48,565 nt of DNA from a virus. Below are positions 5,328 to 47,089 of the stretch, in pieces. Position numbers and translations under genes: made by a program. Below the pieces are notes generated by a model. The model had not been told where the DNA came from and did no database searches. It saw nothing but the letters and a program-made list of their open reading frames with translations. Numbering within the stretch: position 1 is the stretch's first letter; every line of letters begins with the position of its first letter. Where the stretch lies: positions 1 through 48,565 of IMG/VR virus record IMGVR_UViG_3300047409_000384. One strand, given 5' to 3'.

Positions 5328-6784
5328 CTGAGACGGCTGTCGCCAAGCCGCGGTTTCGCGTCAAGGCCGGGAGCGTTCCGACGCTTAGCAAGGCCGAGGG
5401 CGAACCGCACGCCGGCCCATGGCTGCTGCCGGTCAGCGGCGGCTGGCTTCCGGCCGACGTCGGCGACAGCTGGAACTGGTGGCAGAACGGGCACAACATC
5501 GTCGGGCTATCGACGCAATCGGCGATGGTCGAGGCTTGCGTGTCCGCCTATTCGCAAACCGTCGCCATGTGTCCCGGCGATCATTGGCGGCTCAACGACA
5601 AAGGCGGGCGCGAGCGCATCAAGACGTCGTCGCTCTCGCGCCTGCTTCGTCATCCTAACGACTATCAATCCATCAGTGATTTTCTGCTCAACGCAACACG
5701 CTCGCTCTACCTTTACGGCAACACCTATGCGCTCGGGCTGCGCAACGCGCGGTTCGAGATCGACGAGTTGCACCTGATGGACCCGCAGTTGTCCTATCCG
5801 CGCCTCGCCAGCAACGGTGAGATTTTCTATCAGTTGCACGGCAACCAGGTTGTCGAGAAGCGGTTCGGACCCGAGCCGATTCTCGTGCCGCAACGCGACG
5901 TGCTGCACATCCGCTTGCATACGGTGCAGCATCGCTACCCGTCGCCGCTGGTCGGCGAGAGCCCGATCGTCGCGGCCTATAGCGATATCGGCATCAACAG
6001 CGCGATCGGGCAGCAGCAGCTGCGCTACTATCTCAACCAGGCGCGGCCATCGGCCGTGATCTCGACCGATCTGACGCTCGACAAGGACCAGGTACAGGCC
6101 CTGCGCGACCGATGGAACGAGCAGGCAAAAGGCCTGCACCAGGGCGGCACACCGATCCTTACTTCTGGCCTGAAGGTCCTGCCCTGGTCGCAAAGCGGCA
6201 AGGATGCCGCCACCGCGGAGATGCTGAAGCTATCGAACGAGCACATTGCGCTCGCCTTTCGCATCCCATTGCAAATCCTCGGCATCGGCGGCACGACCTA
6301 CAGTTCAACCGAGTTGCTGATGCAGAGCTGGATCGCCAGCGGTTTGGGGTTCGCGCTCAATCACATTGAAGAATCGCTCGGGCTGTTGTTCGACCTCCAG
6401 GGACAGCCCGACGAGTACGTGGAGTTCGACACCGAAGCGCTACTGCGCTCGGCGATGAAAGACCGCATCGAAAGCCTTGCGCGCGGTGTGCAAGGCGGCA
6501 TCTTCGCGCCGAATGAAGCGCGGGCGCTCGAAGGCTATGAAGCAGTGCCCTACGGCGACGAGCCGCGCGTGCAGCAGCAGGTCGTACCGCTCAGCCAAGT
6601 CGGCAAGATTCCCGCGCCGGTCGCGCCATCAGCGCCGATCGCGGCGCCGCCAGCGCCGAACGAGCAGTCAAAGCCGCCAACACCGGCACCGCCGCAAAAA
6701 GGCAACCGCGATGACACTGCACGAAAGGTCCGAAGCATTCATGCCAGTGCCGACCGATTCGGACGACGCCGACCCGCTGCTTGA
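5324..6784 (+). CDS. portal protein, HK97 family
   Basis: A 486-residue portal protein that would form the dodecameric ring through which DNA enters and leaves the head. Family signs include SRLLRHPNDYQSISDFL, LYLYGNTYALGLR, HIRLHTV, SPIVAAYSDIGI and the crown/stem region AFRIPLQILGIGGTTYSS. The last ~70 residues are a Pro/Ala-rich tail, and the next gene begins inside it. The start overlaps the stop of the preceding gene. It stands downstream of the capsid gene, whereas most HK97-like phages place the portal between terL and the protease. The identification is secure. Confidence 0.95.
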   Translation: MTETAVAKPRFRVKAGSVPTLSKAEGEPHAGPWLLPVSGGWLPADVGDSWNWWQNGHNIVGLSTQSAMVEACVSAYSQTVAMCPGDHWRLNDKGGRERIKTSSLSRLLRHPNDYQSISDFLLNATRSLYLYGNTYALGLRNARFEIDELHLMDPQLSYPRLASNGEIFYQLHGNQVVEKRFGPEPILVPQRDVLHIRLHTVQHRYPSPLVGESPIVAAYSDIGINSAIGQQQLRYYLNQARPSAVISTDLTLDKDQVQALRDRWNEQAKGLHQGGTPILTSGLKVLPWSQSGKDAATAEMLKLSNEHIALAFRIPLQILGIGGTTYSSTELLMQSWIASGLGFALNHIEESLGLLFDLQGQPDEYVEFDTEALLRSAMKDRIESLARGVQGGIFAPNEARALEGYEAVPYGDEPRVQQQVVPLSQVGKIPAPVAPSAPIAAPPAPNEQSKPPTPAPPQKGNRDDTARKVRSIHASADRFGRRRPAA

Positions 6785-7733
6785 TGCGTGGAGCGAGGCG
6801 CTCGGCGAGGTGCTCGACACCGAGCGCCGGCAATGGCAGCGCGAGCGCGCTCTGATCGAGGCGCAGGCGGCCGAAGTCATCGCAACGCTGCGGGCTGAAG
6901 TTACAGAGCTACGTGCTGACGTTATGGCGCAGGTCATGGCGCGGCTTGGCGAGCTCAAGGACGGAGAGAAGGGCGAACGTGGTGAGCAGGGCGAGAAAGG
7001 CAATTGCGGCGAAGTTGGCGCGGCAGGCGAGCGCGGAGAGCAGGGCGAAGCCGGGGCGGCAGGCGAACGCGGAGAACAAGGCGAACGCGGAGAACAAGGC
7101 GAAGTTGGCGCAGCAGGTGCTCGGGGTGAGCAAGGCGAAGTTGGTGCGGCAGGCGAGCGCGGAGAGAAAGGCGAGCGCGGAGAGAAAGGCGAGCGCGGCG
7201 AGCAAGGTGCGCCGGGGCGTTTGAGCGTGGCGAAAGCATTCGTCGAGGGCGCGGTCCATTATGAGGGCGACGTTGTGCTTGCCTCGGGCAGTACCTGGCA
7301 GGCACGTTGCGATACCGCCCGCGCGCCACCGCACGAGGATTGGCTTTGCATCGCCGCCAAGGGGCGCGACGCAGCGATGCCAAACGTGCGTGGCACCTGG
7401 AGCGAGGGCGAAACCTATGCGGCGCTCGATATCGTCGCGCTCGGCGGTTCGAGCTTCATTGCCCGGCGCGACCAGCCCGGCCGTTGTCCGGGCGAGGGCT
7501 GGCAGTTGATCGCCTCGGCCGGCAAGCCTGGCATCAAGGGGCCGAAGGGCGACACCGGCGAACGCGGCGAGCCTGGTGTGCGCGGGTTGCCGGGTGCGGC
7601 GGCGCCGTTGATCATCGGTTGGACGATCGACCGTAAGGCTTATGCGGCCACGCCGATCCTCTCGGACCAAAGCCCGGCACCACCGCTTGAACTGCGCGCA
7701 CTGTTCGAGCAGTTCCACGACGAGGCGCGCTGA
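6711..7733 (+). CDS. collagen-like structural protein 1
   Basis: A 340-residue protein. The N-terminal ~85 residues are a charged helix (RQWQRERALIEAQ). A collagen-like run of Gly-X-Y triplets follows (GEKGERGEQGEKG and relatives), then two related beta domains resembling small carbohydrate-binding modules (YEGDVVLASGSTWQAR and YAALDIVALGGSSFIAR), a second short triplet run (GIKGPKGDTGERGEPG), and a globular end. Such proteins usually form trimeric fibres on heads or tails; here it may decorate the head or connector. The ATG at 6711 lies inside the portal gene (74-nt overlap), and the stop overlaps the next ATG. The exact role is unknown. Confidence 0.8.
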   Translation: MTLHERSEAFMPVPTDSDDADPLLDAWSEALGEVLDTERRQWQRERALIEAQAAEVIATLRAEVTELRADVMAQVMARLGELKDGEKGERGEQGEKGNCGEVGAAGERGEQGEAGAAGERGEQGERGEQGEVGAAGARGEQGEVGAAGERGEKGERGEKGERGEQGAPGRLSVAKAFVEGAVHYEGDVVLASGSTWQARCDTARAPPHEDWLCIAAKGRDAAMPNVRGTWSEGETYAALDIVALGGSSFIARRDQPGRCPGEGWQLIASAGKPGIKGPKGDTGERGEPGVRGLPGAAAPLIIGWTIDRKAYAATPILSDQSPAPPLELRALFEQFHDEAR

Positions 7734-8392: not shown

Positions 8393-8818
8393 GTGGATGG
8401 CGTGAGCGTCGACTATAGCGCGCTGCTGTATGATCCCGTCTACGCGGTAATCGGCGTGCCGGCCGTCATCGGCACTACGGAAATCACGGTCATTGACGCT
8501 ACCCGGGCGAAGGCGCTCCCGGTCTCAGGGGGAGGCCAGACAGCGGAGGTGAGCAGCGTCGGGCCTGCGGCTTTCGCGCGTGTTTATGAACTCGATGCTA
8601 AAGGTATCACTCGCGATGTTTGGCTTGATGCGCCGCTCGCTTTCAACGGCAGAACCTGGACGGTGCGTTCCTGGGAGTTGCGTGGCAGTCCCAACGGCGA
8701 AGACCTGGGCGAGGTGCGGTTTTTGCTGAAAGAGTACAACGCCGGCAACGGCGGCGGCGGCGGCGGCTTTGTGTCGAGCTCCGTGTCGAGCCGCTCGATT
8801 GCGGGAGGGGCGATCTAA
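8393..8818 (+). CDS. probable head completion/head-tail joining protein
   Basis: A 141-residue, mostly beta protein ([40 protein letters not shown]), with a Gly-rich stretch and a Ser-rich tail. The start is GTG 8393 (GTG 8402 is an alternative); no strong ribosome site is visible. Position between the connector and the tail terminator suggests a head closure or adaptor protein. This rests on context and length rather than on a recognised motif. The stop overlaps the next start (TAATG). Confidence 0.65.
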
Positions 8819-10116
8819 TGACCGTGATGGGAACGCCGTTCGACCGCGTTGTGTGCCCTACGGCCACGCTCGGTACCGGCAATGTCGTAGTCACCGACCC
8901 CGAGCCGCGGTACATGCGCCCCTACGATGCCGGCGTGCGCGATGGCGATCCGGTCACGCTGCTGCTCGAGGAAGGCAGTGATTTTGAACTATCAGAAGCC
9001 ACGGCCAGTAATTGCACAGCACAGAGTTGCACGTTCGCGCGCAATGCGGTGCGATACTCTTCGATCGGCGGGGTGGTCAGTCAAGCCAAGCTGAGCTTGA
9101 AGGGCGCGGCGCAAGTCTCTGTCGTTGCCGGCGCTGCCGATCTCAACGTGCATCGCGGTGGCACGATCGACGGCAACATCATCCTCAACGGCGATCTCTC
9201 GATCAGCGGCACGCTCACGGGACCGAATCTCCCGGCCGGACCTCCTGGGCCGCAAGGGCCGCAAGGCGACCCGGGGCCGCAGGGTCAGGTTGGCCCGCAA
9301 GGCCCGCAAGGGTTGCAAGGACCGCAGGGCGCCCAGGGTCAGCCAGGTGTAGCCGGACCGCAAGGCGTGCCGGGGGCGGCATCCACCGTTCCCGGTCCAC
9401 AGGGTCCGCCCGGGCCTACGGGGCCCGCTGGTGCGGATTCCACCGTTCCTGGTCCTCAGGGGCCGGCAGGGGCAACTGGCGCACCAGGAGCCACCGGAGC
9501 CCCAGGGGCGACGGGCCCGCAGGGGCCAAAGGGCGACAAGGGCGATGCTGGCAGCGCTGGCACAACGGGCCCGCAAGGCCCGGTTGGACCGGCAGGGCCG
9601 ACTTCCGTCAGCGCCAACGCTGGAAACCTAGCCAAGCTCGGGACCGACAGCCTCATCTACGTTCCGAACACTGGTCCGATCAAAGGCGTGACCGACGGAA
9701 GCGATGCTGCTGCGGGCATGGTGGGCGAGGTTATCTCGTCTACTAATTTTGGCGGAATCGCCTTGACCACGAACGTGTCGATTAACGTCACCTACATAAC
9801 CCTGTCACCTGGCGACTGGAACGTGGGCGGGGTGGTTATCTTTTCGCCGGCCAACACCGGGCCCAATTCCGTCATTGCGGCGCTGAGCCAGACGGCGGCG
9901 ACGTTGCCGTCAGACAACGACGTGGCCACAGGCAAGGCCATCATGCAGCAGATTTGGGCGAGTTCGATGCCTTCGAACAAGACCCAGACAACGCCAACGA
10001 GCCTCATTCGCGTCAACACCAGCACGCCGAAGCCAGTGTATCTGGTGGCGTTCGCGACCTTCGGCGGCGGAACGGTGAGCGTGACCGGCTATATATCTGC
10101 TAGAAGAGTACGATGA
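8818..10116 (+). CDS. collagen-like structural protein 2
   Basis: A 432-residue protein. The N-terminal ~135 residues include a short beta-repeat ([19 protein letters not shown]) of the kind that caps fibre shafts. About 120 residues of Gly-X-Y triplets follow ([16 protein letters not shown] and so on), and then a C-terminal globular domain of about 170 residues that could be a receptor- or surface-binding head. This is the layout of trimeric phage fibres. Unlike the first collagen-like protein, whose triplets are rich in Glu/Arg/Lys, this one uses Pro and Gln, so the two runs probably arose separately. Whether it sits on the head or the tail cannot be told. Confidence 0.8.
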
Positions 10117-29207: not shown

Positions 29208-29223
29208 GGATAATCTAACCCTC

Positions 29224-29343
29224 GCCTAGCCTCGCCAAGCCACGCCATGCCCAGCCTTGCCTTGCCTTGCCGGGCCACGCCCCGCCTAGCCACGCCGCGC
29301 CTTGCCCGGCCAGGCCCTGCCGCGCCGAGCCCTGCCGCGCCGT
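29224..29343. repeat. GCCNN array 1 (24 units)
   Basis: Twenty-four consecutive pentamers GCC+NN in perfect 5-bp register (120 bp). GCC is fixed and NN varies over most dinucleotides. It occupies nearly the whole space between a terminator-like hairpin and the DnaA-domain gene, so any leader of that gene runs through it. Confidence 0.9.
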
Positions 29344-30249: not shown

Positions 30250-30341
30250 CCTTGCCTTGCCTCGCCTTGCCCAGCCGTGCCGTGCCGTGCCTCGCCGCGC
30301 CGGGCCCCGCCCTGCCGAGCCGTGCCTCGCCGCGCCGTGCC
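30250..30341. repeat. GCCNN array 2 (about 18 units)
   Basis: CCTT followed by seventeen GCCNN units and a final GCC, all in register. It begins 8 bases after the stop of the 122-residue gene (leftward) and lies 124 bases before the secreted-protein start. Its first 30 bases (plus strand) are identical to those of array 3. Confidence 0.9.
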
Positions 30342-31919: not shown

Positions 31920-32023
31920 CCTTGCCTTGCCTCGCCTTGCCCAGCCTCGCCATGCCTCGCCTTGCCTTGCCTTGCCGTGCCTTGCCATGCCCCGCCGCGC
32001 CCTGCCGCGCCGTGCCGCGCCTC
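31920..32023. repeat. GCCNN array 3 (about 20 units)
   Basis: CCTT plus twenty GCCNN units in exact register, followed by a near-unit GAC. It fills the gap between the stop of the 209-residue gene (32031) and the RecT start region, leaving 7 and about 10 bases on the two sides. Confidence 0.9.
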
Positions 32024-32030
32024 GACAAAG

Positions 32031-32698: not shown

Positions 32699-32930
32699 CC
32701 TTGCCTTGCCTTGCCTCGCCTTGCCTCGCCTTGCCTCGCCTTGCCTCGCCAGGCCGCGCCCAGCCATGCCTTGCCTTGCCCTGCCGCGCCCGGCCCCGCC
32801 TTGCCGAGCCAGGCCATGCCATGCCCGGCCCAGCCGGGCCGCGCCACGCCCCGCCATGCCCTGCCGTGCCCAGCCCAGCCCTGCCATGGCTGGCCGAGCC
32901 ACGCCGAGCCGCGCCGCGCCTAGCCACGCC
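32699..32930. repeat. GCCNN array 4 (about 46 units)
   Basis: CCTT plus forty-five units and a final GCC, 5-bp register unbroken over about 230 bp. A single unit deviates (GGCTG at 32888). It starts in the last codons of the exonuclease gene, whose TAG stop is part of a TAGGC unit on the minus strand, and ends 38 bases before the start of the next gene. Confidence 0.92.
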
Positions 32931-43746: not shown

Positions 43747-44028
43747 ATGCGCACGCTATCCGAACTGTTCGCCAACCTCGGAATAACTGCCGCGCCGCGC
43801 ACCGGCCGTTTCAACACGACATGCCCGCGCTGCAGCACGCTGCGCTCGAAGAAGCACAAACGCCGCCACAACTGCCTGCGCGTCAACGCCAGCGACGATC
43901 GTATCCACTGGCATTGCTTCCACTGTGGCTACGAGGGCGTGCGCTACGCCGACGAGAGCCTCGACGTGCGGAAAGGTTTCGAGGTGCAGAAGAAACCAAG
44001 AGCAGCCGCATGCAGCCCACACCCATGA
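43747..44028 (+). CDS. zinc-ribbon protein
   Basis: A 93-residue protein. CPRC (about 27-30) and HWHCFHCGY (about 55-60) make a zinc ribbon like that of primases (CHC2-type). AAGGAA at 43736-43741 precedes ATG 43747. Its position shortly before the primase-helicase suggests a role at replication, perhaps in DNA recognition, though the downstream primase has its own ribbon. Confidence 0.7.
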   Translation: MRTLSELFANLGITAAPRTGRFNTTCPRCSTLRSKKHKRRHNCLRVNASDDRIHWHCFHCGYEGVRYADESLDVRKGFEVQKKPRAAACSPHP

Positions 44029-44044
44029 TGAACGAGGGATAGAA

Positions 44045-44512
44045 GTGGAGTGTGAACATTCACGGTCTGAAATTCGCCGGCGCGTCCTCTCCAACGGCGT
44101 GATTGCGTATTATCGGCAATGCCTGACGTGCTCACAATCAGTAGGCAGCGCCATCAAGAAGTGCGATGTCCCTACCGATTGCGCAATGTTCGATGAGCAA
44201 GCGCGCGCCGACTATTGGGAGAGACAACACGCGCAGCGCCGATCTGAATATGATCTAGAGAGGGCTGAGCGGCGGGCTGAATGGTGGGATCGTTATGACA
44301 ACTATCTCTGCTCAGAAGAATGGGCTCGCAAGCGGGGCCTGGTGCTGGCGCGCGACGGCAACCGCTGCCAAGCGCGCCTCGATGGCTGCTCAATGTTCGC
44401 GCGGCAAGTTCACCACCTGACTTATCGGCATGTCTTCAACGAACCGTTGTTTGATCTGGTTGCGGTCTGTGAGTCTTGCCACGATCAATTGCATCCCCCT
44501 GATGGGGAGTAG
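44045..44512 (+). CDS. HNH endonuclease, early region
   Basis: A 155-residue protein. N-terminal CEHS and QCLTC may bind zinc, a charged helix follows (RRSEYDLERAERRAEWWDR), and the HNH core is GNRCQARLDGCSMFARQVHHLTYRHVFNEP then LVAVCESCHDQLH. The start is GTG 44045 with GAGGGA upstream. Standing between replication genes, it could be a homing nuclease or a phage DNA-processing enzyme. Confidence 0.83.
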   Translation: MECEHSRSEIRRRVLSNGVIAYYRQCLTCSQSVGSAIKKCDVPTDCAMFDEQARADYWERQHAQRRSEYDLERAERRAEWWDRYDNYLCSEEWARKRGLVLARDGNRCQARLDGCSMFARQVHHLTYRHVFNEPLFDLVAVCESCHDQLHPPDGE

Positions 44513-44514
44513 GC

Positions 44515-46581
44515 ATGGCCATCTTCTCCGCTCAGGAACTATTGACGCGCCACGGTATCCAATATGTCGCGACGCAGAAGAACAAATATTCGACGGCATG
44601 CCCGACTTGCGGCAATGGTTACTTGAACGTGGAGATCAAGAGCGATCGCGTAGTGTGGTACTGCCAAAGCTGCAAGGAAGGGTCTGGGGAGCAATTCGAC
44701 CAGCCTGACGCGACCGGCGAGCTTGGCGAGCCCAAAGCCATTTACGACTATCATGACGAGAAGGGCGCGCGGCTCTTTCAGGTGCTGCGATTTGAGCCGG
44801 TTAACGGCGCCAAGCAGTTTCGCCAGCGCACTGACCCCGACCAGAAAAAGTGGTCACTCAAGGGCGTGCGCATTGTGCCGTTCCTGTTGCCCGATTTGAT
44901 CGACGCAGTGACTAACGACAAGGTCATCTATGTCGTGGAAGGCGAAAAGGACGTGCTCACATTGCGCGCGCATAATTTGGCCGCAACCTGTAATGCCATG
45001 GGCGCCGGCAAGTGGCGCGCGGATTTTGCGAAATATTTTGACGGGGCCGACGTTGTTATTTGCGGCGACAACGACAAGCCCGGCCGCGATCACGTCATTA
45101 AGGTCGCGCGTACAATCATCGACGTGGCGCGCTGCGTGCGCATTCTGGACCTGCAAACGATCTGGCCAACCATCGAAGAGAGTGATGACATCACCGACTG
45201 GTTCGTGCGCGGCGGTGGAACGGTCGACGCGCTGGAGGAGGCGATTGGGCATATTGCGCCGCTGACTGAAATTCCAAACGGCTATGATCCCGATCCACCA
45301 TGGAGTGATGGCAAGCCAGGTCGCGCCGAACCTCTGCCGGCGCCTTCGGTGGTGTGGCCCATGCCCGTCATCGAGTCCGACATTCCGCTTCGTGATTGGG
45401 TGGTGCTCGGTCTACTCATGCGCCGGCAGGTGACGGTGTTTGTTGCTCCACCTGGTGCTGGCAAAAGCCTGCTCACCTTGCAGCTCGGGCTCGCCTGCGC
45501 CCACGGCACGCCATGGTCGGGTTGGCGCCCGCGCAAGACCTTCCGCGTCATGATCATTAACAGCGAGGATGATATTGACGAGATGCGCCGTCGGCTGGTC
45601 GCCGCAACCTTGCGGATGAGCATCAAGCAAGATGGCGTTCGAAACCGCTTGTGCTTGATCGACAACTCGGCAAGCGGCGCTGTGATCGCCAAGTTTGACA
45701 TGCGGAGCAAAACATTGGTGCGCACGCCATTGCTTGACCAGATAGTCAAAGCGGTGCTCGACAATGAAATAGACATCGTTTTCGTGGACCCCTTCGCGGA
45801 GACGTTCGAAGGTGACGAGAACTCCAACAGCGAACTTAAATGGGCCGGCATGCTGTGGCGCGAAGTGGCGCGGCGGACCAACGCCTCGGTCTGCTTGGTA
45901 CATCACACCAAGAAATACGCCACCGGCATGGCCGGCGATGTCGATGCCGCGCGCGGCGCTGGTGCGTTGATCGGCATCGCGCGTATTGTGTCAACGCTAT
46001 TCCCCATGACAGCGCGGGAAGCCGAGGCCATGGGGGTCGCCGACGACAAGCGCGGTTATTTCCTGCGCTATGACGACGCCAAAGCCAATCTCAACATCAA
46101 GAGCCCGTTCGCCAGGTGGTTCGAAAAGCAGACCGTCACACTCCAGAACGGCAAGGACGATCTGCCGGGCGACGATGTAGGCGTGCTGATCCCATGGGCG
46201 CCGAAGGGTCCGAGCCTGCTGGAATTGGACATTATCAACTTTTTCGCCGCCGTCGACAAAGGCGTGCTCGATCAGCACCAGCAGCCAACGGGTGAATTTT
46301 ACACCTTCGACGGCAAGCGCGGACCCGCCTCAAGCCACTCGGTCGTCGACTTCGCGCTGGCGCATTTCGATTTGGAATCGCGGGCACAAGCGGCCAAGCT
46401 CATCGAGGGCTGGCGGCGCGACAAACGCCTTGAGCAAATCCTGTACCGGTCCCCACGCGCCCGCAAAGCGCGCCCGCGCGTGATCTCCGAACTCGATCCG
46501 CTCGCCCCAAAACGGCAGGCCGCGGAGCCCCGAGCAGAACCTGATCTCCAAGAGGCGTTCGACTATGGGTTGCATAAATAA
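44515..46581 (+). CDS. primase-helicase
   Basis: A 688-residue replicative protein. The zinc ribbon Cys29/32/50/53 (CPTCG, WYCQSCK) is followed by a TOPRIM primase domain (VVEGEKD with Glu142; ICGDNDKPG with Asp185) and a RecA-like AAA_25 helicase (Walker A APPGAGKS at 311-318; Walker B IVFVDPFAE; VCLVHHTKK). It would unwind and prime phage DNA. It starts 2 bases after the HNH gene. The last ~130 residues contain a helical region (VVDFALAHFDLESRAQAAKLI) and a basic tail. Confidence 0.92.
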   Translation: MAIFSAQELLTRHGIQYVATQKNKYSTACPTCGNGYLNVEIKSDRVVWYCQSCKEGSGEQFDQPDATGELGEPKAIYDYHDEKGARLFQVLRFEPVNGAKQFRQRTDPDQKKWSLKGVRIVPFLLPDLIDAVTNDKVIYVVEGEKDVLTLRAHNLAATCNAMGAGKWRADFAKYFDGADVVICGDNDKPGRDHVIKVARTIIDVARCVRILDLQTIWPTIEESDDITDWFVRGGGTVDALEEAIGHIAPLTEIPNGYDPDPPWSDGKPGRAEPLPAPSVVWPMPVIESDIPLRDWVVLGLLMRRQVTVFVAPPGAGKSLLTLQLGLACAHGTPWSGWRPRKTFRVMIINSEDDIDEMRRRLVAATLRMSIKQDGVRNRLCLIDNSASGAVIAKFDMRSKTLVRTPLLDQIVKAVLDNEIDIVFVDPFAETFEGDENSNSELKWAGMLWREVARRTNASVCLVHHTKKYATGMAGDVDAARGAGALIGIARIVSTLFPMTAREAEAMGVADDKRGYFLRYDDAKANLNIKSPFARWFEKQTVTLQNGKDDLPGDDVGVLIPWAPKGPSLLELDIINFFAAVDKGVLDQHQQPTGEFYTFDGKRGPASSHSVVDFALAHFDLESRAQAAKLIEGWRRDKRLEQILYRSPRARKARPRVISELDPLAPKRQAAEPRAEPDLQEAFDYGLHK

Positions 46582-46600
46582 CGAATTCAGGAACCCTCCT

Positions 46601-46822
46601 ATGACAAATCCCCGAATGCTCATCCTGACCGCCCTTGAGCGGCAAATCCAAGAACGGGTGCATTTGCTCGACATTGAGTTTGTTTTGCATGGCAGCGAAA
46701 GGACCAAACGAAAAAGCTTCCGAAAGGAGGTAACCGATGCTGTTTTTGCGTTGCGGCACATCCACAACCTCATTCAAAAAGAAACCGCAAATGCAACTTC
46801 CGCGGTAACTTCCTGGAGGTAA
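46601..46822 (+). CDS. small helical protein after the primase
   Basis: A 73-residue helical protein (MLILTALERQIQERVHLLDIEF, EVTDAVFALRHIHNLIQ). ATG 46601 is used; an in-frame ATG at 46565 overlaps the primase end. It may be a regulator or helicase loader, but no family was recognised. Confidence 0.55.
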   Translation: MTNPRMLILTALERQIQERVHLLDIEFVLHGSERTKRKSFRKEVTDAVFALRHIHNLIQKETANATSAVTSWR

Positions 46823-46841
46823 AAACGGCGCGCAAAATGCT

Positions 46842-46868
46842 GCGCTAGTTTCCACCTGAAACTAACGC
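46842..46868 (+). other. stem-loop in the post-primase non-coding region
   Basis: TAGTTTC (46846-46852) pairs with GAAACTA (46858-46864) around CACCT. Outer GCG/CGC pairs extend the stem to 46842-46868 with one mismatch. No T-run follows, so a plain terminator is less likely. Confidence 0.55.
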
Positions 46869-46905
46869 ACAATTGGCGCACCGAATTTGCGCGAGTTTGC
46901 GTGCT

Positions 46906-46991
46906 CTGCTTCGCAGAAGGAAACCCGCGCAAAGGTGCGCGGGTATTTCCGGCGCTACGCGCGAAATACTCGCTTCCTTCTGCGAAGGCAG
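46906..46991 (+). ncRNA. compact three-way-junction element (ncRNA or origin)
   Basis: An outer stem of 17 pairs with one bulge (46906-46922 with 46974-46991) encloses two hairpins. ACCCGCGCA/TGCGCGGGT (46923-46931/46936-46944) begins right at the outer stem, and ATTTC/GAAAT (46945-46949/46963-46967, with inner GCG/CGC) begins right after. Only six bases (46968-46973) join back. CAATTGGCGC is repeated on both sides, at 46870-46879 and 47012-47021. The region 46823-47089 shows no good gene. It may be a structured RNA or part of the replication origin. Confidence 0.6.
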
Positions 46992-47089
46992 GCCGCAGAT
47001 GCACCTCGGCGCAATTGGCGCGGCCGGCGCAAAGAAAGAATAAGGTTGTATCGACGATGCCCATGACTCACGTCTGATGGAGTTGTATC

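Follow-up and report, generated by a model that had tools for sequence, protein, structure and literature searches.

The virus record analyzed here over its full length (IMGVR_UViG_3300047409_000384 of IMG/VR, 48.6 kb or 48,565 nucleotides, hereafter the window) carries terminase and head genes at its left and a replication block at its right. The latter includes a gene for a primase-helicase of 688 amino acids, and an HNH endonuclease-like gene (PHROG match) is located immediately 5' of it at 43925-44512. The primase-helicase gene is followed by a small open frame, for which family searches gave no significant match, and then by a folded region flanked by repeats (Table 1). The gene 3' of the fold, which the initial annotation presumed to be a late control gene, is DUF6362-like with a score under the Pfam cut-off, and the genes after the structure differ between relatives.

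The primase-helicase joins a Toprim domain, a helicase and a predicted winged helix in a single chain. The helicase part matches Pfam AAA_25 at 4.7e-35, and the only solved relative found for it is RepA of RSF1010 (1g8y, E 5e-19). The Toprim_2 match has 22.8 bits, barely above the Pfam cut-off of 22.1.

Table 1. Features of the replication region in the window, and the corresponding modules on four plasmids (plasmid positions are numbered within each locus).
Feature	Position	Strand	Remark
Primase-helicase gene, proposed initiator	44515-46581	+	Zinc-ribbon-like start, Toprim, RSF1010-RepA-type helicase, C-terminal winged helix (predicted)
C-terminal-domain codons, residues 544-688, proposed iteron reader	46144-46578	+	Predicted winged helix
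Wing-tip residues R650-K651	46462-46467	+	Vary with the iteron word across phages
Small open frame, may not be a gene	46565-46822		Between primase-helicase and folded region
Upstream hairpin	~46826-46883		Contains TAGTTTC/GAAACTA inverted repeat; folds on both strands
Iteron copy CAATTGGCGC	46870-46879	+	Direct repeat; word form as in the iterons of relatives
Iteron-like copy AATTTGCGC	46884-46892	+	One mismatch
Outer stem, 5' arm	46909-46922		14 perfect pairs; 17 including 46906-46908 beyond one bulge
Hairpin 1	46923-46944		9 pairs, inverted GCGCA-core pair; adjoins outer stem directly
Hairpin 2	46945-46967		Adjoins hairpin 1 directly
Third joint ACTCGC	46968-46973		6 nt here; 2-6 nt in relatives
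Outer stem, 3' arm	46974-46987		46989-46991 also pair, past one bulged G
Downstream iteron copies GGCGCAATTGGCGC and CCGGCGCAAAG	47008-47033		Second CAATTGGCGC at 47012-47021
Plasmid module L110	4167-4603		
Plasmid module L111	4167-4367		
Plasmid module L112	4092-4239		
Plasmid module L113	4086-4232		

The region folds into a compact three-way junction. Its outer stem is extended by CTG/CAG after one bulged G to 17 pairs in total and encloses two abutting hairpins, with joints of 0, 0 and 6 nt. This is exactly the geometry described by the initial annotation, and the separate hairpin and the flanking direct repeat reported there are also found, the hairpin upstream of the junction and the repeat, CAATTGGCGC, on either side of it. 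The computed fold of the 218-nt region has z-scores of -5.6 (RNA, plus strand), -8.0 (RNA, minus strand) and -6.3 (DNA), and 0 of 200 shuffles were equally stable. In the whole 48.6 kb, the stretch 46909-46987 is the sole one to pass our strict junction test, and apart from the outer stem it contains no non-overlapping perfect inverted repeat of at least 14 nt within 150 nt. We also looked for the exact 17-mer of the outer arm in viral contigs and set this lead aside, as the four of the 6 matches that we read look like chance.

The shape of this fold is kept in related phages although almost every base has changed. Relatives were gathered with the primase-helicase protein, giving 22 and then 80 viral loci, the 80 being the non-redundant set, and the nearest of them (L030) has 63% identity in its best segment. 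None of the phage records covers 80% of the primase-helicase query, with the best-ranked matches being ~33% identical or less, and a scan of genome contigs with query A1 gave no relatives. In most of these loci the sequence behind the stop codon defies alignment, yet one layout recurs in it. Single iterons are followed by a long, phage-specific outer stem and by a hairpin that usually consists of a pair of inverted iterons (e.g. TGGCGCAAAGTGCGCCA); then come a second hairpin directly abutting the first, a short joint, the closing arm and more iterons.

We searched for this layout using a strict detector that demands a long outer stem around two hairpins, each with at least 5 closing pairs, and joints of 0, 0 and 0-8 nt. 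The junction was found after the primase-helicase gene in 17 of the 80 non-redundant relatives, in the same orientation and with unrelated sequences, a count that is partly post hoc because the final detector was designed after several loci had been seen. Its controls are independent of that, and none of 960 windows taken from other parts of these loci passed, nor did any of 800 Markov shuffles. The third joint is 2-6 nt long in all 17 junctions (the other two being 0 and 0), and the mirror form occurs twice. The 63 relatives failing the test have iterons with other hairpins, or neither. An earlier strict detector with hairpin loops of at most 12 nt gave 3/80 only, and a detector based on minimum-energy multiloops was dropped as unspecific (31/80 versus 175/400 controls).

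Covariation in homologues had been suggested at the outset as a check on a selected structure, and compensatory changes were seen when we ran it. In the alignable clade formed by the window, L030, L031 and L032, 9 of the 14 outer pairs changed on both sides; the whole-structure covariation score was reached by 0 of 500 shuffles, and slid pairings scored far lower. A closer pair of relatives, L067 and L074, differs by 3 double changes in the outer stem and 1 in hairpin 2, with no broken pairs. As part of the origin reading given below, it is likely that the shape rather than the sequence of the three-way junction is under selection.

The folded molecule appears to be DNA rather than RNA. Across the 17 junctions, G-T pairs account for ~4% of the plus-strand pairs (27 of 655) and 3% of the minus-strand pairs (20 of 647), and the mean fold z is equal on the two strands. 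Selection on an RNA should allow G-U pairs on one strand only, so the equal rarity of G-T pairs on both points to folded DNA, as do the iterons, which lie on both strands. We therefore consider it improbable that the region is transcribed into a structured RNA, be it a 3' UTR element, an antitermination signal or the small RNA acting on host or phage functions that was one of the two roles initially proposed. Such an RNA would fit the good folding of both strands and the fixed orientation of the junction relative to the gene, and it could be linked to a NusG-family gene shortly downstream in a Rhodoplanes plasmid and to the protein starting after the L030 region, which looks NusG-like by eye. 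But it leaves the lack of strand bias in G-T content and stability unexplained, and the iterons on both strands track a DNA-binding-type domain. Rfam gave 0 matches above the gathering score in the window, and the search for a sigma-70-like promoter found none, which further disfavors the small RNA.

The repeats around the junction are best described as iterons, given their form of short, phage-specific words on both strands. Words of 7-8 bp were enriched after the primase stop with log10 p of at most -8 in 19 of 79 regions, compared with 4 of 1580 controls, and the enrichment was above all twenty of a region's own controls in 39 of the 79. The enrichment in the window itself is modest, with log10 p of -5.6. 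The word varies by phage and often has a common form, as in AATGGCGCA, ACTGGCGCA, AGTGACGCA, ATTCGCGGA and AATTGGGGA, which CAATTGGCGC shares. Several short repeats of one word are thus clustered at one place, as is the case for iteron origins.

The C-terminal domain of the primase-helicase is predicted to be a winged helix and might be the reader of these repeats. AlphaFold2 models the last 145 residues with a pLDDT of 83 in the order H-H-H-E-E, i.e. three helices and a beta hairpin. The structural matches of this domain are mostly winged helices with middling Z scores (5.9 for BLM RQC), which may reflect merely a common arrangement; with the same domain as the query, Foldseek gave no significant match and the profile search no significant solved relative.

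The residues at the tip of the predicted wing go together with the iteron word. Wing RK is accompanied by GGCGCA in 16 of 17 loci with a clear repeat, while wing RR is accompanied by it in 0 of 8, five of which have GACGCA or TACGCA. The contrast between RK with GGCGCA and RR with other cores gives 8e-6 in Fisher's test, based on loci that we judged to have a clear repeat and on classes defined after part of the data had been seen. In a second clade, wing KGR corresponds to GGGGA and QGR to GAGGA, and wing SSKG corresponds to GCGGA in L056 and L072. When aligned, the K to R and K to Q changes of the wing fall on two neighboring positions. We calculated phylogenetically independent contrasts on a tree of the helicase domain only, and 4-5 of 6 agree with this correspondence and 0 are opposed (sign test p 0.06-0.125). 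The exceptions are L030, L040, L048 and L090.

One pair of relatives, otherwise nearly identical, differs in the C-terminal domain and the repeats jointly. Between L043 and L046, the identity within the gene is mostly 84-100% as far as the end of the helicase domain; it drops to 30-72% over a block of ~890 bp (L043:4901-5790) and is mostly 79-100%, with one indel, beyond this block. The C-terminal-domain codons make up the block together with the repeat/fold region, and a junction-type fold is retained inside it by both phages. Such a joint difference, seen in one pair, would be expected if a DNA reader and its site are inherited together. Going by the alignment of the two loci, we take the block to be a natural cassette exchange.

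Each of the other explanations of the region, like the RNA element discussed above, clashes with at least one observation. The region could be an operator array, in which transcription is controlled by the primase-helicase or another regulator bound to the repeats, with the hairpins as terminators, and 4 terminator-like stems were found on the minus strand where 1.5 are expected. However, their T tracts are poor, a terminator has no need of an outer stem of 14-17 bp or of a junction with two hairpins, the gene that follows varies between phages and the apparent reader of the repeats is a replication enzyme, so we give this possibility as small a chance as the RNA. Slightly less probable again is a packaging site (pac/cos region) or partition site read by the terminase small subunit or a Par protein. 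The gene of the terminase small subunit is at the other end of the record and would be close by if the genome were circular or permuted, but the repeats track the C-terminal domain of the primase-helicase and changed jointly with it in L043/L046, and iterons and a hairpin are also present on the Microvirga plasmid pR24_3, whose (incomplete) annotation lists no terminase. A mobile palindromic element of REP or MITE type that is here by accident is hardly credible, its compact and palindromic build notwithstanding, as the element is present in a single copy in the window, blastn of 1.3 kb against the phage collection gave no matches, and its position stays the same in spite of a complete turnover of its sequence.

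Our analysis suggests that the region 46823-47040 is most likely a replication origin, with iterons bound by the winged helix of the primase-helicase and with a DNA junction, selected for its shape, as a platform. A lytic origin was the other role initially proposed, and it gains support from the phage-specific iteron arrays, from their constant position 3' of the primase-helicase gene and from the correspondence of the iterons with the winged-helix tail of that protein. The hairpins may be the primase start sites suggested along with it. We infer the binding, unwinding, priming and origin activity as well as the job of the fold, and they might be connected as follows. The primase-helicase, encoded by the gene upstream, would bind the CAATTGGCGC-like iterons through its predicted winged-helix C-terminus, assemble on them and use its RepA-type helicase to open the DNA. 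As DNA, the inverted repeat could fold into the three-way junction, either in the unwound single strand or as a cruciform. Most likely this junction would serve the same primase-helicase as an assembly or priming platform, by analogy with the ssi stem-loops of RSF1010 and with the stem-loop of pRN1 as proposed for that plasmid.

In our best reading, the origin works like the origins of P4 and pRN1 and the oriV of RSF1010 but is a member of none of these types, since the domain set differs from each. In pRN1, a ~100 bp stem-loop 3' of the gene for a primase-helicase with a winged helix (orf904) is necessary for replication and is sufficient for it together with the replication operon (PMC4234260). 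The structure of this stem-loop is conserved among the relatives of pRN1 and its sequence is not; the authors suggested that the replication protein uses it as a platform, and they proposed a stem-loop origin of this kind for phage BIP-1 as well (PMC4234260). The window resembles pRN1 in having a large stem-loop of conserved shape and unconserved sequence 3' of a primase-helicase gene that ends in a (predicted) winged helix. In contrast to the archaeo-eukaryotic primase and SF3 helicase of pRN1, however, the phage protein has a Toprim domain and a RepA-type helicase, and where pRN1 is without an iteron structure, the phages have arrays of iterons and a three-way junction, one hairpin of which is built from inverted iterons.

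The alpha protein of P4 has, in one polypeptide, a primase of the Toprim type as well as a helicase and a winged helix that binds the origin repeats (PMC4234260). The phage protein likewise has a Toprim primase and a predicted winged helix in one chain. The P4 alpha helicase belongs to SF3, whereas that of the phage is of the AAA_25/RSF1010 RepA type. Furthermore, the repeats in the window are directly behind the gene and around a conserved fold, which is absent from the description of P4. The RepA-type helicase is shared with RSF1010 (IncQ), and the oriV of the latter also pairs iterons with stem-loops, the ssi sites, that are read by a primase. But RSF1010 has separate RepA, RepB' and RepC proteins instead of one polypeptide (or two genes, in some of the plasmids described below), and its ssi sites are two short stem-loops instead of one three-way junction. 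In the rep-ori modules of SaPI/PICI elements, too, an iteron origin lies behind the gene of an initiator helicase, and its repeats vary by element and match the C-terminus of the initiator. Their initiator is from a protein family different from the phage primase-helicase, and these modules are not known to have a conserved junction. Our literature search did not return the Streptococcus thermophilus phage origin near a primase gene, and the comparison makes no use of it.

The same module is encoded by circular plasmids, which provide circumstantial support for autonomous replication from the putative origin. In four circular plasmids of Alphaproteobacteria, a gene for a RepA-type helicase is directly followed by iterons and long hairpins, the iterons being AGGTGGGG, AAGGTGACGCA, AGGTGGGGCA and AGGTGAGG. 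The Toprim part is a separate gene in three of the four, and phage tail genes are present on pVL1_6 of Methylobacterium indicum and the Rhodoplanes plasmid. We compared the plasmids, with their incomplete gene tables, with three other initiator families and obtained 0 matches for pR24_3 and the Rhodoplanes plasmid, a weak, sub-threshold RepC-like match for pVL1_6, and a clear and strong RepC match for M. lotononidis unnamed3. GC skew was uninformative for both the window and the plasmids, and in the plasmids it gave no indication of the site.

A more general hypothesis, to which we give a little less than an even chance, is that these loci represent a widespread class of dsDNA phage origins whose initiator recognizes two codes, a repeat word set by the wing of its winged helix and a three-way DNA junction (cruciform or folded single strand) read by nothing but its shape, and that word, wing and fold thereby evolve as one exchangeable cassette. 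If the region is an origin of the kind proposed here, it would provide the origin and the initiator for a large group of mostly uncultured phages, which is without a close relative in the phage collection searched, and for phage-like plasmids. It would also extend the structure-coded origin of the archaeal pRN plasmids to an unrelated primase-helicase of the Toprim/RepA type. The correspondence between wing and iteron, together with the natural swap of domain and origin, makes the specificity of the initiator directly testable, and the covarying fold raises the question whether origins can have a DNA junction as a functional component.

Other repeats in the window lie away from the replication region. 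Two open frames at 6477-7733 and 8818-10116 have collagen-like Gly-X-Y repeats and possibly encode tail or fibre proteins. Four arrays of a pentanucleotide (GGCNN, minus strand), each ~90-190 bp long, are located at 29223-29342, 30250-30341, 31920-32024 and 32699-32888, between minus-strand open frames or just upstream of them, and a 19-mer of this array type is present in 29 viral contigs.
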